The notes below the pieces were generated by a model. The model was not told where the DNA came from. It did no database searches and saw nothing but the letters and a program-made list of their open reading frames with translations. Both the position numbers and the translations under genes were made by a program. 34,457 nucleotides of DNA from a virus, in the IMG/VR virus record IMGVR_UViG_3300032289_001367, positions 1 through 34,457 of that record; one strand, given 5' to 3'. This document shows, piece by piece, positions 2,841 to 16,018 of this stretch (the stretch's first letter is position 1; the number at the start of each line of letters is the position of its first letter).

Positions 2841-4616
2841 ATGGCTCATATTAAAATGAGTGAAACTCGCGCCGAAGCCACACCTACAGAGTGGTTAGGA
2901 GTTGGTAGAGATATTGGTCAGTTAGCGAACAAGTGGTCACTTCGTGACGACCTTGTTGCCTATGTTGGACCTGGTGCTGGCGGTCCTGCGCCTGCTTGTT
3001 ACAACCCAAGCACCGCAGAAATAGAAGTAAATGTTGATGTGGCTTTCGGAAAAGGAATTAGTCCACTAGAGATTGGCGATATTTCTAATCGCGCTACTCA
3101 GTATGAGTTTCCTAAAGCAACTGGCGCAATTATTCACGAAGCGTTTCATGCTCGCTTCTCAGGTTGGTCTATGCCTAAGGCGTATGAAGAATTAGAAAAA
3201 GATGAATACAAAGCCTTAATTTTATTAGAAGAAAGTCGTATTGAGTATCAAGGAGTTATTTCTAATCCAAAGGCTCGTACCTTCCTTCGCTCTTGCGCTA
3301 TGGAAATTGTTATTGGCGATACAAAAGATATGGAAAATGAAACACAGACACAATCTTTAAGTAATCTTGTTGGTCTTGTTCATGCTCGCATTGACGCTGG
3401 CATCTTAAATGCACACGAAGTTAAAGATGTAACCACACTTGTTGAGAACCAACTTGGTGTTGATGTTGTTTCTAAGTTGAGAGAAGTAGTTCGCAAAGCA
3501 CAACTCCATGACAATCACAGAGATGCTACAGAACTTTATCCACTAGCAAAAGAGTGGGCGAAGATTGTTCGTGATACTGCTAAAGAGCGTGGAGATGAAA
3601 GTAATCAAGAAGGTGCGAATATACCTAAGGAACTTCTTAAAGCAATCTTAGGCGCACTTGGAGAAGCAAGTAGTTCAGTAGAACTAAATAACTTTGGTGA
3701 ACTTGCCGACCAAGAACAATCTGAAGATTGGAAAGAAGAAGTTAAGGCTAAGGCTTCTGAGGCTGAAGAGCAGAAAGAAAATGAAGAAGTTGCTAAGAAA
3801 GTATTTAGTAAAAGTTCAGGTCCTGCTAACTCAGGTACACGAAGTGTTTTAACTGAGAGTAGAGAACCTACCTTTGAGGAACTTCGTGCTTCTTTAATTA
3901 TTGGCGAAGCACTAGAAAAAGCCAAGTATCGCGAAAGAGATGAGATGCAGGTTTCTAGTATCGTGCCACCCGGAAGACTTCGCGCTCGCGCTATTGTCCA
4001 AAATACTGCCTATCGTGCAAGGGGACAAATGGCACAAGCAAAACCTTTCCGTAGAACAGTTCGTAAGCACACAGACGAGCCAACTCTTAATGTCGGTGTA
4101 ATGGTTGATATTTCAGGTTCTATGGGAAGTGCTATGAACCCAATGGCAACAACTGCGTGGGTAATGAGCGAAGCAGTAAATCGTATTCAGGGCAACTGCG
4201 CTATGGTTTATTACGGAAATGATGTGTTCCCAACTTTATCTATTGGACAAAGATTGGATAGAGTAAATGTTTATTCTGCTTCGGACGGCATGGAAAAGTT
4301 TAATAAAGCCTTCCAAGCGTTGGACGGCTCACTAAATCTACTTAATGGAAATGGCGCAAGACTTCTCGTAATTGTTTCGGACGGAGAATACACTCCTGAA
4401 GAAACTAAAAAAGCAAAAGAAATTATGGAGAAATGTAAAGCGTCAGGCGTTGCGGTTTTATGGTTGCCATTTGATAACGGCAGAGGCGCGAAAGATATTG
4501 GTGGAGATTATGCCGAGATTGTTTTAGATATAAATCAACCTGCGGAAACTGCCGAAGTTATTGGTAGGTCGGCGCAAGCGGTTATGACAAGAATTGGTGA
4601 GCGCGAAAGTGCTTAA
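2841..4616 (+). CDS. VWA-domain protein with HExxH motif, CobT-like (591 aa)
   Basis: The N-terminal half carries H99-E-A-F-H103 in AIIHEAFHARF, a zinc-peptidase-like HExxH. Residues about 255-340 are highly charged and probably disordered. The C-terminal third is a von Willebrand A domain with a complete MIDAS start DISGS (D423, S425, S427) and a later VSDGEY. VWA proteins of this kind partner with MoxR ATPases, as in CobT/CobS or RavA/ViaA. Here the ATPase is the gene just upstream. Whether HExxH is catalytic or structural cannot be told. ATG has AAAGGGGG 8-9 nt upstream. It is followed by a long hairpin at 4625-4664. Confidence 0.88.
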   Translation: MAHIKMSETRAEATPTEWLGVGRDIGQLANKWSLRDDLVAYVGPGAGGPAPACYNPSTAEIEVNVDVAFGKGISPLEIGDISNRATQYEFPKATGAIIHEAFHARFSGWSMPKAYEELEKDEYKALILLEESRIEYQGVISNPKARTFLRSCAMEIVIGDTKDMENETQTQSLSNLVGLVHARIDAGILNAHEVKDVTTLVENQLGVDVVSKLREVVRKAQLHDNHRDATELYPLAKEWAKIVRDTAKERGDESNQEGANIPKELLKAILGALGEASSSVELNNFGELADQEQSEDWKEEVKAKASEAEEQKENEEVAKKVFSKSSGPANSGTRSVLTESREPTFEELRASLIIGEALEKAKYRERDEMQVSSIVPPGRLRARAIVQNTAYRARGQMAQAKPFRRTVRKHTDEPTLNVGVMVDISGSMGSAMNPMATTAWVMSEAVNRIQGNCAMVYYGNDVFPTLSIGQRLDRVNVYSASDGMEKFNKAFQALDGSLNLLNGNGARLLVIVSDGEYTPEETKKAKEIMEKCKASGVAVLWLPFDNGRGAKDIGGDYAEIVLDINQPAETAEVIGRSAQAVMTRIGERESA

Positions 4617-4624
4617 CCAAAAAG

Positions 4625-4664
4625 AGCGAGTGGAACTCCTACCCCTTTGGAGTTCCACTTCGCT
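4625..4664 (+). other. Long intergenic hairpin
   Basis: A 15-bp stem interrupted by one bulged T pairs 4625-4639 with 4649-4664. The loop and the 3' flank both contain TACCCCTTTG. No T-tract follows, so RNA processing or transcript stabilisation fits better than intrinsic termination. Confidence 0.55.
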
Positions 4665-4686
4665 ACCCCTTTGCAGCAGCGGCGAA

Positions 4687-4701
4687 AGCAAAAAGTAAAA
4701 A
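4687..4701 (+). repeat. K repeat, solo copy overlapping a start codon
   Basis: Exact AGCAAAAAGTAAAAA. Its last A is the A of the ATG at 4701. Confidence 0.8.
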
Positions 4702-5138
4702 TGAAAAAATATCAGGTGCGGGACGAAAGTAACTTTGTTGTTAAATACGCACCCCATGTAGTGCCTTCCGTTGCCACAAGATTTGATGCTTGTTTTTATG
4801 CTGGTGAAGGTTTCATAGGTACAGTTTCTTATGAAGGCTTTGCCGTTGAGATTTTCTGTGACGGAGATACAAAGATACATAACCGAAAGACAGACGAGTA
4901 CTACACGGGTGGTTCGGATTTAATACGGGGTGGCTTTGATACGGACAGTAAGTTTAATGACGCGGTAGAGAACGAAACTTTAATTGTGGATATGAACTCT
5001 TGGTTTGACCTTTACTGCTACGGAGAACACCTTGATGCGGTAACCCACACTTTAGATGATGCTCTTTATGTGGCAAAAAATTATGTCTATAAGGAGTATT
5101 TTGATGCGGAGACGCTTGTTGATATGCTTGACAAATAA
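4701..5138 (+). CDS. Hypothetical protein (145 aa)
   Basis: Not recognised. Acidic soluble protein rich in Tyr, Phe and Asp, with several Cys. I chose ATG 4701 because an upstream TTG in frame (4647) would place the start inside the 4625-4664 hairpin. However, 4701 has no good ribosome site: the upstream bases are the K repeat. It ends 42 nt before the next gene. It could be translated by read-in from the VWA gene or by a weak start. Confidence 0.6.
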   Translation: MKKYQVRDESNFVVKYAPHVVPSVATRFDACFYAGEGFIGTVSYEGFAVEIFCDGDTKIHNRKTDEYYTGGSDLIRGGFDTDSKFNDAVENETLIVDMNSWFDLYCYGEHLDAVTHTLDDALYVAKNYVYKEYFDAETLVDMLDK

Positions 5139-5180
5139 AGATTATTCTGAAATAATATGTCTAAAGGGAAAGGGAAAATT

Positions 5181-5402
5181 ATGGCAAGCAACACAACAGT
5201 TTTAATGCGGACACCGACCTGCGTTATGTGCGGTAAGGGAGGCTTCGTAGAAGTTTCTTCTGAAGGATATATGGCACGCAAAAGGGGTGCGTTTGTACAA
5301 GACGCTTTTTCTGAACTGGATATGTCTTTAAGGGAACAGATTATTTCAGGAACTCATCCCAAATGCTGGGATAGTATGGTGGCAGGATTGGAGAACGAAT
5401 AA
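5181..5402 (+). CDS. Conserved phage zinc-knuckle protein (73 aa)
   Basis: The sequence has TPTCVMCGKGG near the start, then VQDAFSELDMSLREQIISGTH and a final KCWD. This resembles a small uncharacterised family common in actinobacterial phages (CxxC zinc knuckle followed by an IQDAFPxL..RE..ISGxxxxCW segment). It probably binds one metal ion through the CxxC and perhaps the later Cys. ATG 5181 is preferred to 5157 because AAAGGGAAAGGG precedes it. The stop overlaps the next start (TAATG), suggesting translational coupling. Confidence 0.65.
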   Translation: MASNTTVLMRTPTCVMCGKGGFVEVSSEGYMARKRGAFVQDAFSELDMSLREQIISGTHPKCWDSMVAGLENE

Positions 5403-5539
5403 TGGTAACTTGCAAAAGTTGCGGTTGGGGTATCACAGCCGACTTTGACTTGTGGGTAGACAACATGGGCGGTGCGGTTTGCTTCTGGGATAGAGGCGTA
5501 GAAAAACCACACTACCCACGAGTACTGGTATCGGCGTAA
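5402..5539 (+). CDS. Small CxxC protein (45 aa)
   Basis: It starts at the ATG of a TAATG overlap with the preceding gene. It begins MVTCKSCGWGI, one zinc-ribbon-like half-site, and contains a later single Cys and Trp/Asp-rich middle. Too short for a family call. The overlap with a conserved gene and the Cys pattern support it as real. A K repeat starts immediately after its stop. Confidence 0.5.
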   Translation: MVTCKSCGWGITADFDLWVDNMGGAVCFWDRGVEKPHYPRVLVSA

Positions 5540-5540
5540 A

Positions 5541-5555
5541 AGCAAAAAGTAAAAA
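5541..5555 (+). repeat. K repeat, solo intergenic copy
   Basis: Exact AGCAAAAAGTAAAAA one base after a stop codon and 22 bp upstream of the -35 of the DUF3846 promoter. Confidence 0.8.
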
Positions 5556-5576
5556 TTAAAGACTTGCGGTCAGTAC

Positions 5577-5605
5577 TTGACTTCTTTGTTTTTAGTTGTT
5601 ACTAT
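5577..5605 (+). promoter_or_regulatory. Promoter for the DUF3846 gene
   Basis: TTGACT (5577-5582), 17 bp, TACTAT (5600-5605), 29 nt before the ATG at 5634. Confidence 0.65.
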
Positions 5606-5633
5606 TGAGCCAACAACAAGTAAAGGGGGAAAA

Positions 5634-6008
5634 ATGGAAAAGCAAAAAGCAGTAATCATTACAACAGACGGAGACAAATCCGTCGTTGAGTTTGATTTTG
5701 GTAAGTCTTACCAACTACTAAGTGATGCCGTTGGTGGCATGATCGAGTGTGTTGGTTTAGAGGACGCAGATGTGTGGTGCAACGAAAACGGCATCGCTGA
5801 AGGTCTGCCCCTAAACATGATTGCTTCGGCTATCTACTCAGATGCCTTTAACGCTAGTAATCCAATTCTCGGTAATGTGATTATTACTGGTAGTTGTGAT
5901 GATGAGGGTGAGACTTTAGGTCTTACTGATGAGCAAGTTGCTTACTGGCTGAACTACGATAAAAAAGTTATACCTGCTTCTTTCCTACTGAGCGGTATGT
6001 ATATCTAA
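5634..6008 (+). CDS. DUF3846 family protein (124 aa)
   Basis: The run YQLLSDAVGGMIECV near residue 24, followed by a NENG..EGLPLN segment and a late NPILGNVIITG, matches the DUF3846 family found in phages and actinobacteria (function unknown). ATG 5634 has TAAAGGGGG at 4-5 nt. An upstream in-frame TTG (5577) is rejected because it overlaps the -35 box. The gene is monocistronic: it has its own promoter and a 12-bp terminator directly after it. Confidence 0.72.
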   Translation: MEKQKAVIITTDGDKSVVEFDFGKSYQLLSDAVGGMIECVGLEDADVWCNENGIAEGLPLNMIASAIYSDAFNASNPILGNVIITGSCDDEGETLGLTDEQVAYWLNYDKKVIPASFLLSGMYI

Positions 6009-6023
6009 AAACTTCCCGAAAAA

Positions 6024-6059
6024 AGAAGATCTGGCTAACGCTAGGTCTTCTTTTTTTTT
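6024..6059 (+). terminator. Intrinsic terminator after DUF3846 gene
   Basis: A 12-bp stem AGAAGATCTGGC/GCTAGGTCTTCT (including G.T pairs) with loop TAAC and nine T. Confidence 0.9.
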
Positions 6060-6061
6060 GT

Positions 6062-6140
6062 AAAAGTTGTTTGGAAGTCTGCGGCTCCAGGAAATCTGGC
6101 ATAGCAAAAAGTAAAAAAAGCACGGGGCTACCGCTGCGGG
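6062..6140 (+). repeat. Composite K-M2 intergenic module A
   Basis: M2 word AAAAGTTGTTTGG (6062-6074), 28 bp, K word (6103-6117, exact). Between them lies CCAG-GAAAT-CTGG, a 4-bp stem-loop. After K, CGG-GGCTA-CCG forms another small hairpin. There is no ORF between 6009 and 6254: the interval holds a terminator, this module, an inverted copy of the GTCAGGAAAGT word (6159-6169) and a promoter. Confidence 0.7.
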
Positions 6141-6177
6141 GGTATAAAAGTATTTTAGACTTTCCTGACTTTTAGAC

Positions 6178-6206
6178 TTGACTTCCCTGAAATAGTCGTG
6201 TATTGT
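6178..6206 (+). promoter_or_regulatory. Promoter for the 6255 gene
   Basis: TTGACT (6178-6183), 17 bp, TATTGT (6201-6206). ACTTTCCTGAC, the reverse complement of a word shared by three other promoters, lies 8 bp upstream of the -35. Confidence 0.6.
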
Positions 6207-6254
6207 CCGTTATGTAAGTGAGAAACTCTCTCTTACCGAAAGGAAAAGACACAA

Positions 6255-6659
6255 ATGACAAATACAGTCAAAGGTGTTGTAGATACAGTAGTCGCGGTTC
6301 GCACTACTACTACAACTATCAAGAACGATACGAAAGTAGTCGCTCTTGACCAAACTAACGCCAAAGAACTTTTAGAAAAGTTTGAGGCAAACAAGGCAGA
6401 TAAGGCAACCTTAGAAGCCCAATACAAGGCACTACAAGCCGAAATCTATTCACTTCTTGGATACAAGAAGGTTGGCGACAAGTGGATCGGTGTCGCAGAT
6501 GAAGGCACTATTGACGGAGTTTCCGTTGTTAAAGTAGGAACACAAACTCGTACAAACTTTGATAAAGAAAAGTTTTTACAGGAAAACCCTGAACTCCTAC
6601 CGCTAGTTGAGGCTTTCACTTCAGAAAGCACCAACACAGTACTAAAAACAACTCGGTAA
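6255..6659 (+). CDS. Hypothetical phage protein with central coiled coil (134 aa)
   Basis: The N-terminal 30 residues are rich in Thr and Val. Residues 33-70 are predicted helical (KELLEKFEANKADKATLEAQ and after), followed by a small domain with GYKKVGDKWIG. The end, RTNFDKEKFLQENPEL with a Thr-rich tail, resembles small proteins of unknown function in phages. ATG has GAAAGGAAAAG upstream. The gene has its own promoter and a GC-rich terminator 13 nt after the stop. No function assigned. Confidence 0.6.
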   Translation: MTNTVKGVVDTVVAVRTTTTTIKNDTKVVALDQTNAKELLEKFEANKADKATLEAQYKALQAEIYSLLGYKKVGDKWIGVADEGTIDGVSVVKVGTQTRTNFDKEKFLQENPELLPLVEAFTSESTNTVLKTTR

Positions 6660-6671
6660 TAATTAAAAAGG

Positions 6672-6702
6672 AAGCCCCCCGCACTCGGCGGGGGGTTTCT
6701 TA
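6672..6702 (+). terminator. GC-rich terminator
   Basis: An 11-bp stem around six C and six G, loop ACTCG, followed by TTTCTT. It also lies only 17 nt before the next ATG, so it must be partly read through or the next gene has a cryptic promoter. Confidence 0.75.
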
Positions 6703-6718
6703 AAACAAAGGGGCAAAA

Positions 6719-7183
6719 ATGAGTACAAAGACAATAACAATAGGTGAGGCAGTAAGATCTCTTAACTTTCTTGCTACTAACTTTATGGAAACAAAAGAGT
6801 TAGATAAAGAAGCGCTAGAAATATCTAGTAAAGCAATAAGTAAAAATCTACTTGTTCGCGATTATTTTCTAGGTATGCCACAAGACTTCGGATTAACTTT
6901 TATGATTTCTCTATGTAAGAAAATGATAGAGGAAGTTAATCAGTCCGAACTTGTTAATCTCTATGCGGTTCACTCTGCTTTTCTTTATGAGAGTGGGGAT
7001 AAGGAACTTTCTATCTACAACTTAAACAAAGCGCTAGAGATAGATAGCGAACACTCACTAACAAGACTTCTAGCCCGTGTCTACCAACACCAATGGGAGT
7101 CAGCAGGTTTCTTTGAGATGAGAAACGAACTACACAGTAAGGTAATTGTTCGCACAAAGGAAAACGCGGAAACAGAAATCTAA
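6719..7183 (+). CDS. Possible DUF4192/TPR-like protein (154 aa)
   Basis: All-helical composition. The segment ALEIDSEHSLTRLLARVY preceded by SGDKELSIYNLNK looks like one tetratricopeptide-type hairpin, or the C-terminal half of the actinobacterial DUF4192 family, which has a similar G..-A..AL..DP..RLA.LL pattern. The rest is not recognised. ATG follows AAAGGGG at 7 nt. A strong terminator follows the stop. The DUF4192 resemblance is an inference from a short segment and could be generic TPR similarity. Confidence 0.55.
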   Translation: MSTKTITIGEAVRSLNFLATNFMETKELDKEALEISSKAISKNLLVRDYFLGMPQDFGLTFMISLCKKMIEEVNQSELVNLYAVHSAFLYESGDKELSIYNLNKALEIDSEHSLTRLLARVYQHQWESAGFFEMRNELHSKVIVRTKENAETEI

Positions 7184-7200
7184 AAATAAAAAAAAAGAAG

Positions 7201-7227
7201 CCCTGCTCACAGAGCAGGGTTTTTTTT
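7201..7227 (+). terminator. Intrinsic terminator
   Basis: CCCTGCTC-ACA-GAGCAGGG followed by eight T. Confidence 0.95.
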
Positions 7228-7251
7228 ATGTCAACGCAGCGGCTAAGTTAA

Positions 7252-7346
7252 TTTTTACTTTTTGCTAATCTTCTGCCGCTGCGCGGCTAAGTAAAAACAA
7301 CTTGGGAAGTCAAACCCCAGAAAACCTTGACCAAAAAAATGTTAAG
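7252..7346 (-). repeat. Composite K-M2-M3 intergenic module B
   Basis: K word in reverse (7252-7266, exact), 25 bp, M2 in reverse (TAAAAACAACTT, 7292-7303), 29 bp, M3 AAAAAAATGTTAAG (7333-7346, forward). A GCCGC-TGC-GCGGC stem-loop lies between K and M2. M3 overlaps the spacer of the promoter at 7327-7355. The 7184-7446 interval has no ORF and holds terminator, module and leader. Confidence 0.75.
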
Positions 7347-7355
7347 TCTTATAGA
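7327..7355 (+). promoter_or_regulatory. Promoter for the 7447 gene
   Basis: TTGACC (7327-7332), 17 bp, TATAGA (7350-7355). The implied leader of about 85 nt contains a GGAGA/TCTCC hairpin (7408-7422). A second, less likely TTGACT lies at 7373. Confidence 0.5.
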
Positions 7356-7446
7356 GTGATATACATCTCATTGACTTTTACCCTGTTTTTTCGTTTACCT
7401 ATATAGAGGAGAAAATATCTCCTTTGTAAAAGAAAGCAGGAATATC

Positions 7447-7662
7447 ATGGAACTAAATGACTTAGAGGACTATCTACAAACCGCCCAAGCCCGTCCTATC
7501 GAGCCAGCAAAACCTTTGGAGGGTAGGGTCTATAAGAAAAGACTTGCTAAGCCTTCTCAGGTGTGTGGGTGCGGTCAGAAGTTATCCATAGCCAATACGG
7601 AGAAAACTTGCTTCTCGTGCCGTAGGTTGGGGGTAGTTGACTATAATCAGTTTTTTCGATAA
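7447..7662 (+). CDS. Zinc-ribbon miniprotein (71 aa)
   Basis: The C-terminal half has CGCGQ, then CFSCR after 13 residues, a CxC...CxxC zinc-ribbon arrangement. The N-terminal half is acidic, and a basic linker RVYKKRLAKP leads into the knuckle. Such small zinc proteins in phages often bind nucleic acid or host transcription proteins, but nothing here identifies the target. ATG has AAAGCAGGA at 7 nt. The leader contains a GGAG-sequestering hairpin upstream. Confidence 0.65.
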   Translation: MELNDLEDYLQTAQARPIEPAKPLEGRVYKKRLAKPSQVCGCGQKLSIANTEKTCFSCRRLGVVDYNQFFR

Positions 7663-7716
7663 GATCCACTTTGTAAGTGAATATCATTCTCCTACTAAAA
7701 GAAAAGAGGCAACACA

Positions 7717-7920
7717 ATGGCTGCTAACTTATACACAATAGAGGACTTGCTAATAGGCAAACTCTACCGCTCAGAAAACCGACACTTCTCAGGTAAGATC
7801 GTTTCCGTAGAGAAGTCAGATCTTTGGTACGGAGAAAACACTCAGGCGTATGTGGTCGCTATAAAAACTCCGAACATAAAATATAAATACGCAACAATTG
7901 CGGTAAAAACAGGAGAATAA
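7717..7920 (+). CDS. Hypothetical small protein (67 aa)
   Basis: Not recognised. It is beta-rich (GKIVSVEKS, AYVVAIKTP, YATIAVKTG), compatible with a small SH3-like barrel, and has no Cys. ATG follows GAAAAGAGG. It is separated from the zinc-ribbon gene by a small CACTT/AAGTG hairpin and followed at once by a terminator. Confidence 0.55.
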   Translation: MAANLYTIEDLLIGKLYRSENRHFSGKIVSVEKSDLWYGENTQAYVVAIKTPNIKYKYATIAVKTGE

Positions 7921-7925
7921 GAATG

Positions 7926-7952
7926 ACCCCCCGCAAGGGGGGTTATTTTTTT
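7926..7952 (+). terminator. Intrinsic terminator
   Basis: CCCCCC-GCAA-GGGGGG followed by TTATTTTTTT. Confidence 0.9.
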
Positions 7953-8056
7953 AAGGTCTTAGCAAAAAGTAAAAAAGCACCAAGATCGCTAGTGACTAGG
8001 TAAAACTACAAACAACTTTTGTACTTGCCCAAAAACCTTAGCAAAAAAAATGTCAG
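7951..8056 (+). repeat. Composite K-M2-M3 intergenic module C
   Basis: K word forward (7961-7975, exact), 30 bp, M2 in reverse (CTACAAACAACTTTT, 8006-8020), 22 bp, M3 AAAAAAAATGTCAG (8043-8056). CTAG-TGA-CTAG lies between K and M2, and TAAG-GT-CTTA lies just before K. There is no ORF between 7921 and 8170. Confidence 0.75.
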
Positions 8057-8114
8057 TTTTTTCGAGGAGTCGGGGGTGTGATATAGAACACATAAAGATT
8101 TTTCCTAAATAGAC

Positions 8115-8142
8115 TTGACAAACCTGCTCCAATCGCTATACT
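8115..8142 (+). promoter_or_regulatory. Promoter for the WGR-like gene
   Basis: TTGACA (8115-8120), 16 bp, TATACT (8137-8142), 28 nt before the ATG at 8171. Confidence 0.7.
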
Positions 8143-8170
8143 TAAACCAATACCAAACAAAGGGGAAAAA

Positions 8171-8410
8171 ATGAAAAAGTTTATCTTGGTAAAAAAGTCC
8201 GACGGAGAACGAGGACAAAACGGCAAGAAAAAGATTTACGAGATTGTACAAGAGGGAACTCGCGTTGTAATGATGTGGGGTAAGGCAGAAGAACTAAAGA
8301 AACAAGAAAGCACAAAGTTTTTCGCAACAGAGCGTCAGGCATATTGGTTCGCTCTAGAAAAGCAAATGGAAAAAGAAAACAAGGGCTACGAACTAATAGC
8401 GTCGCTCTAA
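8171..8410 (+). CDS. Stand-alone WGR-like domain protein (79 aa)
   Basis: KKIYEIVQEGTRVVMMWGKAEE, then a conserved-looking F-x-x-x-x-x-A pattern and the ending EKENKGYELI follow the WGR domain plan, with WGK in place of WGR. WGR domains occur in PARPs and MolR-like proteins and bind nucleic acid or activate a neighbouring domain. A stand-alone copy of 79 residues is nearly the bare domain. ATG follows AAAGGGG. It is monocistronic between a promoter and a hairpin terminator. Confidence 0.7.
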   Translation: MKKFILVKKSDGERGQNGKKKIYEIVQEGTRVVMMWGKAEELKKQESTKFFATERQAYWFALEKQMEKENKGYELIASL

Positions 8411-8415
8411 GATGT

Positions 8416-8448
8416 GGGGAAGCCCCACCGAAAGGTGGGGTTATCCCC
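8416..8448 (+). terminator. Terminator-like long hairpin
   Basis: CCCCACC-GAAA-GGTGGGG inside an outer GGGGA/TCCCC pairing. No T-tract, so efficiency is uncertain. Confidence 0.6.
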
Positions 8449-8473
8449 AAACAACTATTAACAAGGGGGAAAA

Positions 8474-8704
8474 ATGGATTCAGTAGAGTTTGATGAGTTT
8501 GGCAGGGTTTATATTCGCCCAACTCACTATGCGGGTGGTGTTGCGTTAGAGCCCGGTGCAAAAGCACCAAAGATAAATATAAAGATTCGTTTCTGCGTTA
8601 TCTGCGAAAAGCAACTTTCTATGTATAACAATGATAAAAACAATGTGTGTTATAGCACCGCTTGTGAAAAAAAGTTTCACGACTCAAAAAAGAATAAAAA
8701 ATAA
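8474..8704 (+). CDS. Zinc-finger-like small protein (76 aa)
   Basis: The C-terminal half has CVICEKQ, then CYSTACEKKFH, a possible four-Cys (or Cys3His) zinc site, and a Lys-rich tail. The N-terminal 40 residues are not recognised. ATG has AAGGGGG at 5 nt. It lies 63 nt after the WGR-like gene beyond a weak terminator and is followed at once by a new promoter. Confidence 0.6.
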   Translation: MDSVEFDEFGRVYIRPTHYAGGVALEPGAKAPKINIKIRFCVICEKQLSMYNNDKNNVCYSTACEKKFHDSKKNKK

Positions 8705-8707
8705 TAC

Positions 8708-8736
8708 TTGACTTTATTTTAATAAAATGTTATGAT
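8708..8736 (+). promoter_or_regulatory. Promoter for the 8769-9570 operon
   Basis: TTGACT (8708-8713), 17 bp, TATGAT (8731-8736), 33 nt before ATG 8769. Confidence 0.7.
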
Positions 8737-8768
8737 TACGACAACAACAAACTTAAAGGGGTAAATAA

Positions 8769-8897
8769 ATGTCCGACATGATTCTAAAAAACTTAGGCTT
8801 ATACGCTAATGGGAAAGTTGTACCTATTTGCGGAGAGTGCGAAAAAGCACTTACGCCGGATGAACTTGGGTATGGTCACGATTGCGAGGCTAAGTAA
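8769..8897 (+). CDS. Cys-rich miniprotein (42 aa)
   Basis: A 42-codon ORF with ATG preceded by AAAGGGG. It contains CGEC, and HDC near the end, so a Cys3His zinc knuckle is plausible. Its TAA overlaps the next ATG by one base (TAATG), a coupling seen repeatedly in this region. A promoter lies directly upstream. Too small for a family call. Confidence 0.55.
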   Translation: MSDMILKNLGLYANGKVVPICGECEKALTPDELGYGHDCEAK

Positions 8898-9190
8898 TGA
8901 ATAACTTAGAACTAATAAAAGAAAGAGTGAGCGAGGCTAAGGCTATCGCTTGGGACACCTGTCACAAGATTTATGTCCTAATGGACGATGAACAGGTAGA
9001 ACTAATGCGCGAGTACCAATACGACCCACTAATAACAAATGTGGAAGCAACACCGGAAGAAATGCTAGCCACCCTAGAGGAGTGGTTTGAGGATTCTTGC
9101 GGTCTTAGATTTATACAAGCAGTAAGCACTAATCATGAAAATCCTAATGACGGGTTTGAGCAACTTATAGAACAGGGGTCAGAGTGGTAG
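8897..9190 (+). CDS. Conserved hypothetical phage protein (97 aa)
   Basis: AIAWDTCHKIYVLMDDEQ near the N-terminus, an EEMLATLEEWFEDSCGLRFI segment and the ending GFEQLIEQG resemble a small uncharacterised family in actinobacterial phages. It is helical and acidic and has two Cys (C22, C75). It overlaps the upstream miniprotein gene by one base and the downstream gene by 7 bases, so translation is probably coupled through all three. Confidence 0.62.
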   Translation: MNNLELIKERVSEAKAIAWDTCHKIYVLMDDEQVELMREYQYDPLITNVEATPEEMLATLEEWFEDSCGLRFIQAVSTNHENPNDGFEQLIEQGSEW

Positions 9191-9570
9191 CAAAAAGTAA
9201 AAATCTACCGCGCTATCTTTATCATGCGAGTGCGGTCTGTAATCGAGAAAGCATAGATGAACGCGGACTTATCTCAAGTTTCGGAGAAGTCTACGCAAGC
9301 GAGAGCGAAGACGATTGCTTAACCTTTATGGGTTTCAGGTTGATGTCGCACTTTCATTTTGTTAAGGAGGGTGACGATCCCGTATATGTAGAGCATGATA
9401 GTTTGCTTGTGTATCAGATAGATACAAAAGTCACTGGTAAAACTAAGTGGGAAGTGGGAACAGATCACAACGCTAAGTTTTTTGGAAACGCAACTTCATG
9501 GGTTCATCTTGGCTCAATAGAACGAGAAGCGATTGTTCGCGTTGTTGAGTATGCGCCACAGGGTGCTTGA
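9184..9570 (+). CDS. Hypothetical protein, ART-like features (128 aa)
   Basis: It starts at GTG 9184, with AGGGG upstream. LYHASAVCNRESIDERGLI followed by VYASES resembles the beginning of small ADP-ribosyltransferase-fold proteins (LYHAT..N...I...GL....VYL). An Arg/Val-rich C-terminal strand with Glu (AIVRVVEY) could supply the last element of a H-Y-E-type triad. This is a fold-level inference, not a family match. The first residues VVAKSKN are encoded by an exact K repeat, so the native start may be later. The promoter of the next gene overlaps its stop. Confidence 0.5.
   Translation: MVAKSKNLPRYLYHASAVCNRESIDERGLISSFGEVYASESEDDCLTFMGFRLMSHFHFVKEGDDPVYVEHDSLLVYQIDTKVTGKTKWEVGTDHNAKFFGNATSWVHLGSIEREAIVRVVEYAPQGA
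9189..9203 (+). repeat. K repeat inside a gene start
   Basis: Exact AGCAAAAAGTAAAAA encoding AKSKN at codons 3-7 of the 9184 gene. Confidence 0.8.
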
Positions 9571-9595
9571 CAAAAAACAAATTGCATGAGATACT
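9567..9595 (+). promoter_or_regulatory. Promoter for the 9622-10449 operon
   Basis: TTGACA (9567-9572), 17 bp, GATACT (9590-9595). The -35 overlaps the upstream stop codon. Confidence 0.6.
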
Positions 9596-9621
9596 TATGT
9601 TAAGAAAAGGGGGTTACTCAA

Positions 9622-9876
9622 ATGAGTGACAAAGAAACAGTAATGTTAGAAGTAGACTCCGAAGAGGGTGCTTTCCTAAATATGGGATTGGCACTACTGC
9701 TGGAGATGTTGAGAGATGATATTGAGAAGTGGGAGAACAAGAAAGACTCTTCCGTGGACAAGTTATTTTTTCTTATGGACACGAAGGTCGGGGTCGCTAG
9801 TTTATGGCGCAAGGTGCTTATCTCAATGGGAGCAAATCCCGAAGATATTGCCGAACACCTAAAGGACGCGGACTAA
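9622..9876 (+). CDS. Hypothetical acidic protein (84 aa)
   Basis: Not recognised. Largely helical, acidic, with a hydrophobic stretch LNMGLALLLEML too short and interrupted for a membrane span. ATG follows AAAAGGGGG. It is the first of three tightly packed genes: the next ATG begins 3 nt after its stop. Confidence 0.55.
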   Translation: MSDKETVMLEVDSEEGAFLNMGLALLLEMLRDDIEKWENKKDSSVDKLFFLMDTKVGVASLWRKVLISMGANPEDIAEHLKDAD

Positions 9877-9878
9877 TA

Positions 9879-10109
9879 ATGGATAATATATTTCCAAGCC
9901 GAACAGTAATGTTCGTTGGTGACTATTTTACTCTAATGACTACAATAGTCTTAGATGAAAAACTCAGAGATGAGAACGAAGCAGATAACGATTTCGCGGT
10001 TCGTATCGCTTCTGTATTTATGAATGAATACTATGGATTTGATGTAGCGTCAGTTGCCAATAGTATCGGGGTTGTAGATGAAGACGGAATGGTAGAAGAA
10101 AATGATTAA
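9879..10109 (+). CDS. Hypothetical acidic protein (76 aa)
   Basis: Not recognised. ATG 9879 is chosen over the in-frame 9804 because 9804 lies deep in the preceding gene, whereas 9879 directly follows its stop. Acidic, with a hydrophobic start (TVMFVGDYFTLMTTIV) that could be a buried beta segment. It overlaps the next gene by 8 bp. No function assigned. Confidence 0.5.
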   Translation: MDNIFPSRTVMFVGDYFTLMTTIVLDEKLRDENEADNDFAVRIASVFMNEYYGFDVASVANSIGVVDEDGMVEEND

Positions 10110-10449
10110 GACTTCCATAGACTTGTTTGACGAAACTTGCAATGCTATTGCTGGTGGAGAACTGGATAGACAACTAATCCCACTTAAAAAACTTATAGAG
10201 GAAAGACTTAGCACTCTAAGAGTGGATGCGGATATTAAGGATTTCGTAGTCGGGGACAAGGTTGTCCTAAACGACAAGTGCGGAACAAAGTATTTGATAG
10301 GGGAAGAGGGAACTGTGGTTTCCATTAGGAGAAGTAAAATCAGTATTTCTTTTGATAAACCTAAGGGAAGATTTTCTAGAACAAACTCCAAAGGAGAGAT
10401 TTACTCTGCCAATGTGGTCGTCCCGGTGGCAATAGTTGATAAAATCTAA
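10102..10449 (+). CDS. Hypothetical protein with SH3-like C-terminal half (115 aa)
   Basis: The N-terminal 45 residues are helical. The C-terminal half, VVGDKVVLNDKC then GEEGTVVSIRRSKISISFD, has the GD.V......G..G.V......I.V.FD pattern of a KOW/SH3-like small barrel. Such barrels in phage proteins are generic and do not define function. It overlaps the preceding gene by 8 bp, so the three genes 9622-10449 form one operon. It is followed by a structured gene-free stretch. Confidence 0.55.
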   Translation: MIKTSIDLFDETCNAIAGGELDRQLIPLKKLIEERLSTLRVDADIKDFVVGDKVVLNDKCGTKYLIGEEGTVVSIRRSKISISFDKPKGRFSRTNSKGEIYSANVVVPVAIVDKI

Positions 10450-10462
10450 ACGCCTTTTGGGA

Positions 10463-10477
10463 AATAAAAAGTAAAAA
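10463..10477 (+). repeat. Degenerate K repeat
   Basis: AATAAAAAGTAAAAA, 13 of 15 bases match the K word, 13 nt after a stop codon. Confidence 0.5.
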
Positions 10478-10494
10478 ATCAGGCTAAACTAATT

Positions 10495-10539
10495 CTCACC
10501 TTGGGTAGCGGTTAATCCCCTTTTCCGCCCCAAGTTGAG
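10495..10539 (+). ncRNA. Stable intergenic stem-loop, possible RNA element
   Basis: Three stacked helices, CTCA/TGAG, CTTGGG/CCCAAG and GCGG/CCGC, give 14 bp with small bulges and a 12-nt loop TTAATCCCCTTT. It lies in the 194-bp gene-free stretch 10450-10643 and is followed by two further hairpins. No convincing -35 box is seen, although TAAACT at 10485 could be a -10. It may be a 3'-UTR element of the preceding operon. Confidence 0.4.
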
Positions 10540-10565
10540 AGCAGGGACTACCCCTTCATGCTCCG

Positions 10566-10594
10566 CCAACCCCCCACCGATCTGGGGGGTTTGG
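10566..10594 (+). terminator. GC-rich terminator-like hairpin
   Basis: CCAACCCCCC paired with GGGGGGTT(T)GG over an 8-nt loop. T-tract absent. Confidence 0.55.
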
Positions 10595-10613
10595 TGTTTA
10601 ATAAATAAAAATC

Positions 10614-10639
10614 ACCCTTCCGAGAGTAGGGTATTTTTT
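10614..10639 (+). terminator. Intrinsic terminator
   Basis: ACCCT/AGGGT with a 9-nt loop followed by ATTTTTT, ending 5 bp before the next ATG. Confidence 0.55.
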
Positions 10640-10643
10640 AACC

Positions 10644-10889
10644 ATGGAAATCGTAGATAAGTATTATCACGCCAATGGGTCAGCCGTCCCTTTTATTGCA
10701 GCCCTTGTTGATGATCCTGCCGATGGCGACACGAAAATTGTTATTATGTTTGATGAGAAGGACTTTACCGCCGTCCTTTCGCTAGACTCTCTACTTCGGG
10801 ATGAGGATGTTTCAGCGAGAAACAATGGATACCACGGAGATAAGTATGAAAAACTTAGAGAAGATTTGTGGGACGGCTTTCTAAACTAA
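10644..10889 (+). CDS. Conserved hypothetical protein (81 aa)
   Basis: The middle (FIAALVDDPADGDTKIVIMF) and the end (NNGYHGDKYEKLREDLWD) resemble short uncharacterised actinobacterial phage proteins. No catalytic motif. ATG 10644 has only a weak ribosome site (TAGGGT, which is also the terminator stem), so the start is uncertain. A K repeat directly overlaps its stop codon. Confidence 0.55.
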   Translation: MEIVDKYYHANGSAVPFIAALVDDPADGDTKIVIMFDEKDFTAVLSLDSLLRDEDVSARNNGYHGDKYEKLREDLWDGFLN

Positions 10890-10903
10890 GCAAAAAGTAA
10901 AAA
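10889..10903 (+). repeat. K repeat upstream of the Ntn hydrolase
   Basis: Exact AGCAAAAAGTAAAAA. The first A is the last base of the preceding stop codon. It ends 17 bp before the next ATG. Confidence 0.8.
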
Positions 10904-10919
10904 AAATTGGGGAAAAATC

Positions 10920-11492
10920 ATGACAACTATTGCAGCGATACAGGGGGAGAACTGGGCTGCCATAGGCTATGACTCAAGACTAACCGAGGACAACAGCAAG
11001 ATATATACGCTGCCTAAAGACAATGGCAAAGTAAATAAAAATGGTCCATACTTAATTGGCGCGGCTGGAGATATGCGTGCCATTAACATACTTACACATG
11101 TCTTTAAGCCACCTGCGGTAAATCCAAACCTTTATGGGGCAAAGTTAGACAAGTTTATCTCTTCAGTCTTTATTCAAGATATGAAGCGTTGCTTCGAGGA
11201 CAACTCCTATAGCAAAGACGGAGAGCATGACTCTCAAGTAATGGTTGCGGTTAATGGAACTGTCTACGAGATTGGTGATGACTTTTCTTGGGCACATGAC
11301 GAAACAGGCGTATACGCCATAGGCTCAGGTAGTGGATACGCTATGGGAGCGATGCTGGCAAGCCTAGATAACAAAAAGAAAACCTTAGGCACAGCCAAGA
11401 ATGTTATTAGACAAGCAATAACTATTGCAGCCAAGTTAGATCCAAGCACGGGGCTGCCGATTAACATCTCGGTGCAGCACTTCGGATCCTAA
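10920..11492 (+). CDS. Proteasome/HslV-like Ntn hydrolase (190 aa)
   Basis: After loss of Met the protein would start TTIAAIQG, the N-terminal Thr arrangement of HslV and 20S beta subunits. Counting that Thr as 1, the next landmark is D17 in GYDSR, exactly where HslV has its catalytic Asp. A Lys in NGKVNK (36) is close to the family's K33. GSGSGYAMGA near residue 140 matches the glycine-rich segment before the last helices. Expected role is peptide-bond hydrolysis by the N-terminal Thr, possibly as a ring. No unfoldase is adjacent, although the MoxR-type ATPase lies 8 kb upstream. GGGGAAAAATC precedes ATG. Confidence 0.82.
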   Translation: MTTIAAIQGENWAAIGYDSRLTEDNSKIYTLPKDNGKVNKNGPYLIGAAGDMRAINILTHVFKPPAVNPNLYGAKLDKFISSVFIQDMKRCFEDNSYSKDGEHDSQVMVAVNGTVYEIGDDFSWAHDETGVYAIGSGSGYAMGAMLASLDNKKKTLGTAKNVIRQAITIAAKLDPSTGLPINISVQHFGS

Positions 11493-11570
11493 AAAGTTGT
11501 TTGTAGTCGAGCCATCTGGCTGCTGAAGATATATTTTTTACTTTTTGCTAGTGCTGCTGTCGCTGCTTAC
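11491..11570 (+). repeat. Composite K-M2 intergenic module D
   Basis: M2 AAAAAGTTGTTTGTAG (11491-11506), 28 bp, K in reverse (11535-11549, exact). AGCC-ATCT-GGCT lies between them. A weak further M2-like word, AGTTGTTTATAAAT, starts at 11589. M2 begins inside the stop codon of the Ntn hydrolase gene. Confidence 0.75.
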
Positions 11571-11604
11571 TAAGAATCTTGGTAAATGAGTTGTTTATAA
11601 ATAC

Positions 11605-11633
11605 TTGACTTTCTTTTGGACAATTGCTATACT
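11605..11633 (+). promoter_or_regulatory. Strong promoter of the 11640 RNA
   Basis: TTGACT (11605-11610), 17 bp, TGC-TATACT (-10 at 11628-11633). One of the best promoters in the window. No coding sequence follows before the terminator. Confidence 0.8.
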
Positions 11634-11639
11634 AAAGTT

Positions 11640-11770
11640 ATTCGGTAGGGGGAAGTCGCTGGTCACCTGAACCACTTTAACTCTAGAGGGTGGGAAACAA
11701 TACGACTCCCTACCGAACTTAATTAAGTAAAACAAAAAACTCCTTGTCTTTATACGGCAGGGAGTTTTTT
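11640..11770 (+). ncRNA. Candidate stand-alone structured RNA, about 130 nt
   Basis: The predicted start (7 nt after the -10) coincides with the first base of a long helix. TTCGGTAGGG (11641-11650) pairs perfectly with CCCTACCGAA (11708-11717), then AGTCG (11654-11658) pairs with CGACT (11703-11707). Inside is a 7-bp hairpin, CCACTTT/AGGGTGG (11672-11693). The transcript ends at a terminator with an 8-bp stem and T6. It has no start codon with a ribosome site. It is not a canonical tRNA: no T-loop consensus and no CCA. Class unknown; it does not fit any riboswitch I recognise, and no gene follows it directly. Confidence 0.7.
11739..11770 (+). terminator. Terminator of the 11640 RNA
   Basis: ACTCCTTG/CAGGGAGT stem with an 11-nt loop, A-tract before and T6 after. 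Confidence 0.85.
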
Positions 11771-11781
11771 ATTGGAAAAAA

Positions 11782-11916
11782 CTTAACATTTTTTTCATCA
11801 AGGCGGAAGGCAGAACCAAAAGTTGTTTTTAGATCATGATCCTTTTCACCAGGGCCCGTAGCAAAAAGTAAAAAATTGCAGCAGCCTGGCTGTCTGGCTG
11901 CGTAAGTTGTTTGTAG
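11782..11916 (-). repeat. Composite M3-M2-K-M2 intergenic module E
   Basis: Read in reverse this repeats module B. M3 is CTTAACATTTTTTTC (11782-11796), M2 AAAAGTTGTTTTTAG (11818-11832) and K is exact (11860-11874). The palindrome GATCATGATC lies between M2 and K. A second M2 (AAGTTGTTTGTAG, 11904-11916) follows, and between it and K is a GC-rich GCAGC/GCTGC hairpin. Together with module D it brackets the 11640 RNA. The 11493-12051 stretch contains no protein gene. Confidence 0.75.
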
Positions 11917-13642: not shown

Positions 13643-13824
13643 TGGAAGAAACCGAAATACTGATTGACTGTGATTTTGCTTGTAGGTTTGAGTGGATTGA
13701 GTTGTCTAGCAACTTTTTTGACATCTCCGTCTACACGCCTGCGGCGCTCGCGGTTTTGTTTGGAGTTTTAATTTACAGAGCCATTAAGAGAAAACAAGGT
13801 TCTGGACTCAATGGCAAAAAGTAA
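13642..13824 (+). CDS. Small single-span membrane protein, holin candidate (60 aa)
   Basis: An acidic N-terminal 30 residues with two Cys is followed by a hydrophobic span YTPAALAVLFGVLIYRAI and a basic tail KRKQGSGLNGKK. Topology is therefore probably N-out/C-in. It is coupled by TAATG to the previous gene and overlaps the next by 14 bp. With its neighbours at 13475 and 14005 it forms a cluster of tiny membrane proteins upstream of the transglycosylase, so a holin role is reasonable but unproven. Confidence 0.5.
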   Translation: MEETEILIDCDFACRFEWIELSSNFFDISVYTPAALAVLFGVLIYRAIKRKQGSGLNGKK

Positions 13825-14008
13825 AAAACTTGAGGGTCGGGCTGCAGAACTTTATACTTCTGGTCTGGCTATAGATAGTGTTGCGGTTGAACTGGGAGTT
13901 TGTTATAGAACTGCTAGGAAGGCTATCCGTAATGGTGGAGCGCAACTAAGAGATCCTTCTTCTCGCCTGAGGGGTAGGACTAAACCTAAAAAGAAAGGCA
14001 ACAAATGA
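13811..14008 (+). CDS. Helix-turn-helix protein (65 aa)
   Basis: AAELYTSGLAIDSVAVELGVCYRTARKAI is a resolvase/Hin-type helix-turn-helix, followed by a basic tail RLRGRTKPKKKGNK. Likely a DNA-binding regulator. The first residues MAKSKK come from a K repeat overlapping the start codon. It overlaps the upstream gene by 14 bp, and ATGA couples it to the next gene. Confidence 0.65.
   Translation: MAKSKKLEGRAAELYTSGLAIDSVAVELGVCYRTARKAIRNGGAQLRDPSSRLRGRTKPKKKGNK
13813..13827 (+). repeat. K repeat variant in a gene start
   Basis: GGCAAAAAGTAAAAA (14 of 15), beginning at the G of the ATG at 13811. Confidence 0.65.
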
Positions 14009-14569: not shown

Positions 14570-15172
14570 ATGCACAAATCAAACAATAGAGTTGTCGAAA
14601 AAATAGTAAGTGTCTTAATTGCGGTGGTATTCGTATCCGCTTTCTCTACATATATCCAAGCATCAAACGCACAACAGACAATGAAAAGTGAAGATGAAGT
14701 AAGAGCCCAGATTGAAGAAGAAATCGAGGCGCATAAAGTAAAAATTAGGAACCTAGAGTTGAAGAAGTTCTCTGAGCAGAAGACTCCTTTCACCGATGAA
14801 GAGTTAGCCAAGATGCTAAGCACCGTTGGGTTTGAAGGTAAGGCACTCAAAGTAGCGTGGGCAGTTGTGAAGAAAGAATCAAATGGACGCCCCCTAGCCT
14901 TTAATGGCAATGTTAAAACAGGAGACAACTCATACGGTATATTCCAAATCAACATGATTGGTGGGCTAGGCGTAGCACGGCGTGATAAGTACGAACTTAA
15001 CTCCAATAAAGACTTGTTCGACCCAGTTGTCAATGCCCAGATTGCCTATCACATGAGTAATGCAGGAAGCAATTGGTCGTCATGGGGTGTAGGCACATTC
15101 CCTTATAATGGTAATACCGAGCAAAGCAATTTTAATCTATGGATTACAAAGTTCCCAGAAAGGGGATTTTAA
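14570..15172 (+). CDS. Membrane-anchored lytic transglycosylase, SLT-like (200 aa)
   Basis: Residues about 10-30 form a signal anchor (VSVLIAVVFVSAFSTYI), followed by a charged coiled coil (40-70). The catalytic domain starts near 77: AWAVVKKESNGRP holds the family Glu (E103), then GDNSYGIFQINM and the ending NAQIAYHMSNAGSNWSSWG are classic Slt/lysozyme-like motifs. It would cleave murein glycan strands from outside the membrane. ATG 14570 has AAAGGA at 5 nt. The in-frame TTG 14540 is rejected. TAATG couples it to the next gene. It is likely the main lysin of this phage. Confidence 0.9.
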   Translation: MHKSNNRVVEKIVSVLIAVVFVSAFSTYIQASNAQQTMKSEDEVRAQIEEEIEAHKVKIRNLELKKFSEQKTPFTDEELAKMLSTVGFEGKALKVAWAVVKKESNGRPLAFNGNVKTGDNSYGIFQINMIGGLGVARRDKYELNSNKDLFDPVVNAQIAYHMSNAGSNWSSWGVGTFPYNGNTEQSNFNLWITKFPERGF

Positions 15173-15618
15173 TGAGCGATGAACTAAACCAAGAAGAACC
15201 AACTAGGTGGGAAATGCCGTCTGAGCCTGAAGCCCCTGCGGTTGAAGAAGTTGTTGATACTCCAGCAGAACCAGAACCAGAAGCAGAGCCAGTTGTTGAA
15301 GTTGTTTCTGCTCCAGCAGAACCTGCGGCTGAAGTAGCAAAAAGTAAAAAACCTGCAGCAGCACCAGATTACCAAGATGGAGAAGTTGTTGTGTTGTCTA
15401 AGCTAGTCCTGAGCAGCAATGAACGAAACTCTAGGTCAGTTGCTTTAGTTCAAGAACAATTAGTTGCTAAAGGGTATGCCGATGTTGACCTAGATAAACG
15501 AGGTTGGTACAAAGAGAATACTCACAAAGCACTGTTAGATTTCTGCGGTGATGAAGGTATTAACGAGTCCACAGTAAGAAAGTTGTTCGTTAATACAAAG
15601 GTTTCAATAGCCTACTAA
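15172..15618 (+). CDS. Peptidoglycan-binding-like protein with acidic linker (148 aa)
   Basis: Residues 8-65 are a low-complexity Glu/Pro/Val/Ala linker, ending in a segment AKSKKPAA encoded by an exact K repeat. The C-terminal 75 residues (SVALVQEQLVAKGYADVDLD, then a GWYKENTHKALLDFC core) match the peptidoglycan-binding domain 1 plan. Coupling to the transglycosylase suggests the two act together at the cell wall. There is no signal peptide, so export would need a holin. ATG 15172 has AAAGGGG at 6 nt. Terminator directly after. Confidence 0.78.
   Translation: MSDELNQEEPTRWEMPSEPEAPAVEEVVDTPAEPEPEAEPVVEVVSAPAEPAAEVAKSKKPAAAPDYQDGEVVVLSKLVLSSNERNSRSVALVQEQLVAKGYADVDLDKRGWYKENTHKALLDFCGDEGINESTVRKLFVNTKVSIAY
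15336..15350 (+). repeat. K repeat inside the peptidoglycan-binding gene
   Basis: Exact AGCAAAAAGTAAAAA encoding AKSKK in the linker. Confidence 0.8.
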
Positions 15619-15664: not shown

Positions 15665-15811
15665 TTACTTTCTAGCTTTCTTTACCTCAAAGGTTACGGG
15701 AACTAGTTCAAGGTTTAGAGTTGGTAGCACTGCGGTTCGTATTAAGTCCATTAAAGCAAACTCATTTAATTCGTAGCCTTCTACTTGGAAGCTGATTGAA
15801 TGTTTAGTCAT
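15665..15811 (-). CDS. Small leftward protein (48 aa)
   Basis: On the reverse strand. The start at 15811 (MTKHSISFQVEGYE...) has AAAAAAGGGG at 6 nt and is preferred to an upstream ATG at 15859. The product is a small alpha/beta unit ending in a basic KKARK. Not recognised. It has its own promoter and ends at the shared terminator. Confidence 0.55.
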   Translation of the reverse strand: MTKHSISFQVEGYELNEFALMDLIRTAVLPTLNLELVPVTFEVKKARK

Positions 15812-15859
15812 CTTATTCCCCTTTTTTATGCCCCGCCTCTTGCGGTGCTTATGAAACAT

Positions 15860-15889
15860 ATCTTACATCCATACTAAAGAGCTTGTCAA
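15860..15889 (-). promoter_or_regulatory. Leftward promoter for the 15811 gene
   Basis: Reverse strand TTGACA (15884-15889), 18 bp, TAAGAT (15860-15865). Confidence 0.65.
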
Positions 15890-15949
15890 GTATTTAATAT
15901 GTTATGTGTCTAGTTATGCGGTAGCTCGGTTCTATTAGCTGCAAAAGTT

Positions 15950-15964
15950 TTTTTACTTTTTGCT
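15950..15964 (-). repeat. K repeat, solo reverse copy
   Basis: Exact AGCAAAAAGTAAAAA on the reverse strand, upstream of the leftward promoter. No M2 word nearby. Confidence 0.8.
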
Positions 15965-15991
15965 AACCAGCTTCAGAGGACAAACTTAGAC

Positions 15992-16018
15992 AAAAAAGAA
16001 AGGCTACTTTCGTAGCCT
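15992..16018 (-). terminator. Leftward intrinsic terminator
   Basis: On the reverse strand AGGCTAC-GAAA-GTAGCCT is followed by TTCTTTTTT. It closes the 16390-16037 operon. Confidence 0.9.

Follow-up and report, generated by a model that had tools for sequence, protein, structure and literature searches.

A dispersed two-word element in the small-gene block of phages related to Actinomycetia phage DSL-LC01, and its candidate reader

The IMG/VR virus record IMGVR_UViG_3300032289_001367, 34,457 bases long and analysed over its whole length (the window, W), carries a dispersed composite element built from two short words, K and M2, that stand at a constrained distance from each other. An earlier note had described five gene-free places between positions 6062 and 11916 that carry K, a changing stem-loop, M2 and, in three of them, a third word, M3, and had taken them for an undescribed dispersed phage element under selection for structure. 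K, M2 and their spacing are a real dispersed composite element, and no description of K has been found in the open-access literature among the matches listed. The words, their spacing, their confinement to one block, their pattern of conservation, their promoter context and their co-occurrence with a protein family, A9, have all been observed. On balance, and with modest confidence, we read K, M2 and, less surely, M3 as putative operators of a phage regulator that would control the small-gene block.

Words, spacing and confinement of the element

K (AGCAAAAAGTAAAAA) is an A/T-rich 15-mer with 11 exact copies in the window, 8 forward and 3 reverse, while the reversed word used as a control has none. 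When up to three mismatches are allowed, 27 matches to K are found against 6.2 expected, and 10 to M2 against 2.9; in neither case do any of 100 shuffles reach as high. All six strong M2 sites of the window (position weight matrix score of at least 14 bits) lie 38.5–44.5 bp, centre to centre, from a K, where the null mean is 0.10. Neither word is a dyad, and K is asymmetric. K and M2 are present at all five gene-free places, 24–30 bp apart edge to edge, and in two of these, C and D, they point in opposite directions. The modules are as follows.

Module A, 6062–6117, plus strand: M2 6062–6076 (+), GC-rich spacer, K 6103–6117 (+); terminator at about 6024–6060 directly before, promoter TTGACT-17-TATTGT (6178) 61 bp downstream.
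Module B, 7252–7346, minus strand: K 7252–7266 (-), M2 7291–7304 (-), M3 7333–7346 (+); terminator 7200–7228 before, promoter TTGACT-19-TACCTA (19-bp spacer) at 7371 after.
Module C, 7961–8056, plus strand: K 7961–7975 (+), M2 8006–8020 (-), degenerate M3 8044–8056 (+); terminator 7926–7950 before, promoter TTGACA-16-TATACT (8115) 95 bp after.
Module D, 11492–11549, plus strand: M2 11492–11506 (+), K 11535–11549 (-), weak second M2 at 11587; stop codon of an HslV-like gene before, leader-RNA promoter TTGACT-17-TATACT (11605) 56 bp after.
Module E, 11782–11916, plus strand: M3 11782–11795 (-), M2 11818–11832 (+), K 11860–11874 (+), second M2 11902–11916 (+); terminator at about 11733–11771 before, promoter TTGACA-17-TATCCT (11993) 77 bp after.

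Modules A, B, C and E thus sit behind an intrinsic terminator, and a predicted sigma70-type promoter lies downstream of each of the five. Of the 20 module or K sites examined in the window and in the relatives G1 and G4, most have a consensus promoter 12–186 bp downstream. M3 is the weaker word. Modules B, C and E have it at the spacing claimed for it, but its plain count in the window (4 matches against 1.7 expected, with 12 of 100 shuffles as high) is not unusual. The relatives lend it support: of their 16 distinct A7-TG sites, 11 have an M2 no more than 80 bp away, the distance being 36.5–42.5 bp for eight (seven on the opposite strand) and 24.5 bp for three.

The earlier note had named random M2/M3 spacing in relatives among the outcomes that would count against the element. 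K-M2 pairs were drawn from relatives found by protein homology and, separately, from contigs fetched by pattern; these contigs are incomplete and their gene calls mechanical. The 118 non-redundant pairs no more than 120 bp apart were reduced to 93 for the histogram by removing the 25 selected by the spacing pattern of the fetch. None of the 93 is closer than 33 bp, 47 lie at 38–45 bp, 24 at 47–55 bp and 21 beyond, so the spacing is constrained in the relatives as well, which favours the element. The typical distance of about 42 bp, or about four helical turns, recurs in front of many small genes. All four relative orientations are found, and several K copies are flanked by M2 on both sides.

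The conservation pattern follows the words. In relatives that are 70–95% identical the words are nearly fixed and the intervening DNA changes; in the orthologous modules A, D and E, 31 of 31, 27 of 29 and 39 of 42 word columns are invariant, against 20 of 31, 14 of 32 and 34 of 60 of the other columns. The K core AAAAAGTAAAA is kept across lineages and the flank varies (AGCAAAAA, AGCCAAAAA, AGTAAAAA and others), as would be expected of an operator co-evolving with its reader. One contig (G017, L168-L174) has K in the form AGTAAAAAGTAAAAAC, in which the 7-bp unit AGTAAAA is repeated perfectly in tandem, suggesting that K is a direct repeat of two half-sites. The K-M2 spacers have a GC content of 54% against about 42% and are enriched in CAGC, CCAGG, CAGCTG and GCCGGC, which may represent a third, degenerate site.

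Synteny between the window and its relatives breaks at the module edges 7228, 7939, 11550, 11566 and 11860. No tyrosine integrase was found in the five relatives tested for it, and a serine resolvase is encoded in three relatives. The breaks and the resolvase would suit recombination hot spots, the words acting as short homology or as a recombinase target for the gain and loss of small-gene cassettes. Junctions of gene gain and loss do fall nearer the words than random positions would, with 6 of 19 gene-content breaks within 25 bp (p = 0.011 against any position), but this excess vanishes against intergenic positions only (p = 0.22), and a role in shuffling is therefore unproven. At least one of the junctions seems to stem from recombination close to terminators and not to words, and a recombinase-family protein is annotated in the K-less phage DSL-LC01 as well. 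Hot spots would also leave the constant spacing and the K copies at codons unexplained, and we consider them quite unlikely.

K and M2 are confined to one block of 20–30 kb, rich in small genes, within contigs of 60–133 kb; in the window the five modules sit within a rightward small-gene block. In G001 (133 kb) the first 20 kb hold all 10 exact copies of K and 11 of the 14 strong M2 sites, and comparable blocks of about 22–28 kb are found in G004, G014, G018, G019 and G020. Dense K/M2 arrays with GC-rich spacers have been observed at the left end of the block in G1 (L036, 1500–2100) and in G4 (oriented 4300–5700); the G1 array lies upstream of a WhiB-like gene, and such arrays could be an origin or a master control region. 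The confinement and these denser left-end arrays are what a dispersed origin or centromere, serving replication, partition or packaging, would offer. The changes in GC skew, however, track gene orientation and not the block, the sites track gene junctions and promoters, and two site types at fixed spacing before separate promoters would be unusual for iterons; an origin or centromere is, in our view, highly improbable.

Over 85% of its length, the portal protein of the window shares 77% identity with that of Actinomycetia phage DSL-LC01, a lake phage of 129 kb assembled from a metagenome (PMC10611076); Microbacterium and Arthrobacter phages are next closest, and the largest IMG/VR relatives measure 133 kb. 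A WhiB-like open reading frame (ORF), read from the sequence, lies near the left K sites of G1, and the K-less DSL-LC01 encodes two WhiB, so that the host is likely actinobacterial. BLASTN of the element region against named phages gave no match, and four contigs of the wider family (105–135 kb) have no CAAAAAGTAAAA at all. In the K-less DSL-LC01 (L139, 18–46 kb) the equivalent block carries dispersed repeats of its own, TCTAAAGATGTTATAAT, which is promoter-like, and ACGACGAAAGGACAA, which resembles a ribosome-binding site, at about 16 copies.

In 257 Gb of sequence from 84,980 bacterial and archaeal genomes, the M2-K pattern gave a single match, in an unrelated Lachnospiraceae metagenome-assembled genome, and no actinobacterial genome in that search carried the composite, which points to a phage-specific system. 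This bears on the proposal that the words are sites of a host protein (a nucleoid protein, regulator or initiator) or of a phage WhiB-like regulator, and not of the two-domain family discussed below. A/T-rich words beside sigma70-type promoters, the WhiB-like ORF of G1 and the ability of phages to use host regulators are compatible with it. Against it stand the near absence of the composite from these genomes, among which the hosts are poorly sampled, and the presence of WhiB in K-less relatives such as DSL-LC01; we regard this explanation as unlikely.

Outside the five modules, six further exact K copies and one K-like word occur in the window.

4687–4701, plus strand: K copy abutting an ATG start codon.
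5541–5555, plus strand: K copy without M2, 22 bp upstream of promoter TTGACT-17-TACTAT (5577).
9189–9203, plus strand: K copy overlapping the TAG stop of ORF 8897–9190 and the start of ORF 9184–9570.
10889–10903, plus strand: K copy overlapping the TAA stop of ORF 10644–10889, just 5' of the HslV-like gene; kept in phages that are 70% identical.
13811–14008, plus strand: HTH_23-like protein of 65 aa (weak match); a K-like word overlaps its start codon.
15336–15350, plus strand: K copy in frame in ORF 15139–15618; an M2-like word stands on either side, at centre-to-centre distances of 38.5 bp (upstream) and 45.5 bp (downstream).
15950–15964, minus strand: inverted K, followed after 61 bp by a leftward promoter (TTGACA, 15889) and by the leftward ORF 15665–15859.

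In several lineages, K and M2 stand at their usual spacing inside the coding sequence of ORF 15139–15618 (the EVV...AKSKK region). Of the K sites in the window, 46% are intergenic and 38% touch a stop codon, where random positions give 7% and 4%; association with a start codon ranges from 0 to 45% by genome and is 23% in the window. The position of K at starts and stops is in keeping with a DNA site that can persist where the demands of coding are low, and the sense-strand bias of K inside genes may simply reflect coding.

Folding of the modules and the leader RNA

Constant spacing with changing but paired arms had suggested to the earlier note that structure is under selection. Self-complementary stretches do exist between K and M2, but they are not conserved, and their arms change without consistent compensation in orthologous modules. 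The folding z-scores of the five modules (+0.65, -1.45, -0.98, -0.31 and +2.0) show that single modules fold no better than shuffles. Module A has no pair with a two-sided change, and its 95% of paired cells depend on G-U wobbles; in module D 64% of cells are paired, with one two-sided pair; in module E 79% are paired, with one two-sided pair while others break. The 93 non-redundant spacers lean only slightly towards dyads (mean z -0.34, standard error 0.12), and the folding of 36 and of 93 spacers was set aside as evidence of structure. Because these tests are unsupportive, the five differing stems are better described as ordinary dyads in GC-rich DNA than as covarying RNA. The covariation analysis with more copies, by which the earlier note proposed to judge the idea, yielded nothing convincing; this result, the flips in orientation and the location upstream of promoters all speak against selection on structure.

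Cassettes of the PeSL type, in which a hairpin in the transcript or in extruded DNA would be selected for termination or shuffling, draw on some spacers that are good hairpins (B, z -3.5; E2, z -3.4; G1_L1, z -2.4), on the dyad tendency with an excess of palindromic GC-rich words (CAGCTG, GCCGGC, GCAGC), and on the layout of terminator, module and promoter. The near-zero module scores, the many broken cells in D and E and the flips argue the other way, as does the fact that modules would often be untranscribed, since they lie before promoters and after terminators. We hold such cassettes to be very unlikely. Rfam scans gave no match over the modules. A BSnc120 match at 5984–6069 was rejected, being far below the gathering score and covering the terminator, and a reading of the modules as nut sites (boxA/boxB) was dropped since they flip and precede promoters.

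If any structure in the region is under selection, it is that of an RNA between modules D and E.

11637–11723, plus strand: leader RNA of 87 nt, just 3' of the promoter at 11605.

Its fold comprises P1 of 10 bp, a further 5 bp past a bulge, a conserved internal loop and a 4-bp base of the P2 hairpin. A covariance model finds 29 copies, 20 of them distinct, and 12 of 14 contigs have one copy per genome. Across the 20, every one of the 380 pair cells is standard and seven pairs show two-sided compensatory changes, which none of 500 shuffles reaches; the alignment was fitted to its own model, which favours pairing, and slid controls fall to 20–45% paired. In relatives the RNA usually has a promoter on its 5' side and, on its 3' side, the ribosome-binding site of a small gene, of which several different ones occur; in the window phage it is followed by an intrinsic terminator. 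No Rfam match to the RNA was found at E <= 1 in the window or at E <= 0.1 in three relatives, and BLAST against named phages gave none. The leader RNA is a strong candidate for a new family and of interest to RNA biologists.

A candidate reader with two helix-turn-helix domains

In a presence/absence comparison of the ORFs of G001 with two K-bearing and three K-less genomes, ten ORFs fit the profile of K, and A9 alone among them has an evident DNA-binding domain; it is a protein of about 210 aa with two helix-turn-helix (HTH) domains. A profile search gave strong A9 matches in nine K-bearing contigs of at least 60 kb (G001, G004, G005, G014, G017-G021) and no strong match in four K-less contigs (G012, G013, G015, G016). 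As this co-occurrence spans few independent lineages, it is suggestive only. In many lineages a second A9 paralogue lies on the opposite strand, close to where the K block ends.

The K core lies 87–142 bp before the A9 start codon in L120, L127, L060 and L021, and in the last three M2 is nearby and a TTGACA-17 promoter lies downstream of K, ahead of the A9 gene. The words upstream of the A9 gene in several lineages would amount to autoregulation. An AlphaFold2 model of A9 has two confident HTH regions (mean pLDDT 74), and its significant Foldseek viral matches are uncharacterised phage proteins only. A9 is the most likely candidate for the reader of K, or of K plus M2.

17129–17629, plus strand: two-HTH protein of 166 aa, a distant A9 relative (hhalign probability 88%, E 3e-6).

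This 166-aa family is present in K-less phages too. Elsewhere, the window holds two very large ORFs, of 2117 aa (21486–27839), with almost no family match, and of 1777 aa (28918–34251), the interior of which matches portal and head-maturation families. Leftward small genes at 15665–16639 include a Zn-finger-like one (MKCTQCNTYPL...), GC skew turning negative there, and a 58-nt promoter/leader repeat is duplicated in the leftward small-gene stretch (16398–16455 and 16668–16725).

Proposed control of the block and known phage systems

According to the proposed mechanism, K, M2 and, less surely, M3 would be asymmetric DNA-binding sites that jointly make up the control regions of the small-gene block. 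In the intergenic modules, which separate a finished transcription unit from the sigma70-type promoter of the following one, K and M2, at their distance of about four helical turns, would be bound by proteins that touch each other or bend the intervening DNA, and would thereby repress or time the downstream promoter; binding itself, the assignment of a protein to each word and the sign of regulation we infer. Solitary K copies at gene starts and stops could serve as roadblocks or local operators, in the manner of stoperators, and A9, often encoded on the opposite strand at the downstream end of the block and preceded by the same words in several lineages, may regulate itself.

Several findings weigh against this proposal. 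A9 is one of ten ORFs with its presence/absence profile, and shared descent within the K-bearing clade may account for part of the correlation with K. Two incomplete K-bearing contigs, G002 (103 kb) and G006 (63 kb), have only weak A9 matches, and the 34-kb window has nothing closer than the distant 166-aa relative. Of ten A9 copies inspected, six lack a K immediately upstream. Compared with PDB by Foldseek, the predicted A9 fold has no match at E <= 0.001, and the 50 matches listed include no mycobacteriophage repressor. The orientation of K also appears mixed, unlike that of stoperators.

K/M2 is a new variant among the dispersed-repeat control systems of actinophages, which include stoperators, SAS/ESAS and the Cluster O repeats. 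In Cluster A phages (L5, TipsytheTRex) the stoperator is a short asymmetric word, dispersed in intergenic and promoter regions and mostly oriented along transcription, and the repressor that reads it is a monomer with two HTH-like domains (PMC9283540). K is likewise short, asymmetric and dispersed in intergenic spaces and promoter regions, and the TipsytheTRex/L5 repressor would be, by analogy, the nearest mechanistic precedent for A9 with its two HTH domains. K differs from the stoperator in being an A/T-rich 15-mer and not a 13-mer, in having a second word at fixed spacing and in its confinement to one block. Its orientation appears not to be strict in the window, where eight copies are plus and three minus; of the latter, that at 15950 precedes a leftward gene and those of B and D are inverted before rightward promoters. 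In G001-G007 exact K copies have an orientation ratio of mostly 9–11 to 1. As to the temperate lifestyle with immunity that marks stoperator phages, the observations are the lack of a tyrosine integrase in the five relatives tested, the serine resolvase of three relatives and the absence of the M2-K composite from the actinobacterial genomes searched. The overall fold of A9 is not similar at the sensitivity used, and A9 is not classed as a Cluster A-type repressor.

The SAS/ESAS of Cluster K pair a non-palindromic 13-mer beside start codons with upstream imperfect 17-bp inverted repeats that enclose a variable spacer, in about half the cases (PMC3203893). This is the same kind of two-part design as K plus M2, but only a minority of K copies touch a start codon, M2 forms no inverted-repeat pair, and most intergenic modules lie far upstream, before a promoter; the SAS reading of K was dropped because few K sites are at starts. 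The 17-bp repeats of Cluster O occur in more than 30 dispersed copies, intergenic and intragenic, are of unknown function and show some gene gain or loss between copies (PMC4351075). K shares the many intergenic and intragenic copies, whereas the Cluster O repeats are 7+3+7 dyads found genome-wide and K, an asymmetric word, has M2 as its partner and stays within one block. The PeSL of T4-like phages are composite promoter-terminator motifs, as far as they are described in the account citing Arbiol 2010 and Comeau 2014 (PMC4503421). The likeness drawn to them in the earlier note appears, within that account, in the layout, a terminator, words and an early-type promoter in intergenic DNA of fast-changing small-gene blocks; the stem between K and M2 is not conserved, the conserved part here being two words that resemble protein sites, and shuffling is unproven beyond the intergenic background.

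A bolder and tentative extension, which we hold with less confidence than the operator reading itself, is that these uncultured lake actinophages have an independently arisen stoperator-like system. A monomeric two-HTH protein would read K, as 7-bp direct repeats AG(C/T)AAAA-AGTAAAA, at gene ends and K-M2 pairs, four helical turns apart, before promoters, and would switch a whole block of 25 kb that also carries the new promoter-linked leader RNA, one copy per genome. In large environmental phages the majority of genes are small, uncharacterised and quick to change, and the regulation of blocks of such genes is largely open; a two-word code with fixed spacing marks one such block. Since a candidate reader follows this code across the family, its regulation is directly testable with purified protein and synthetic DNA.

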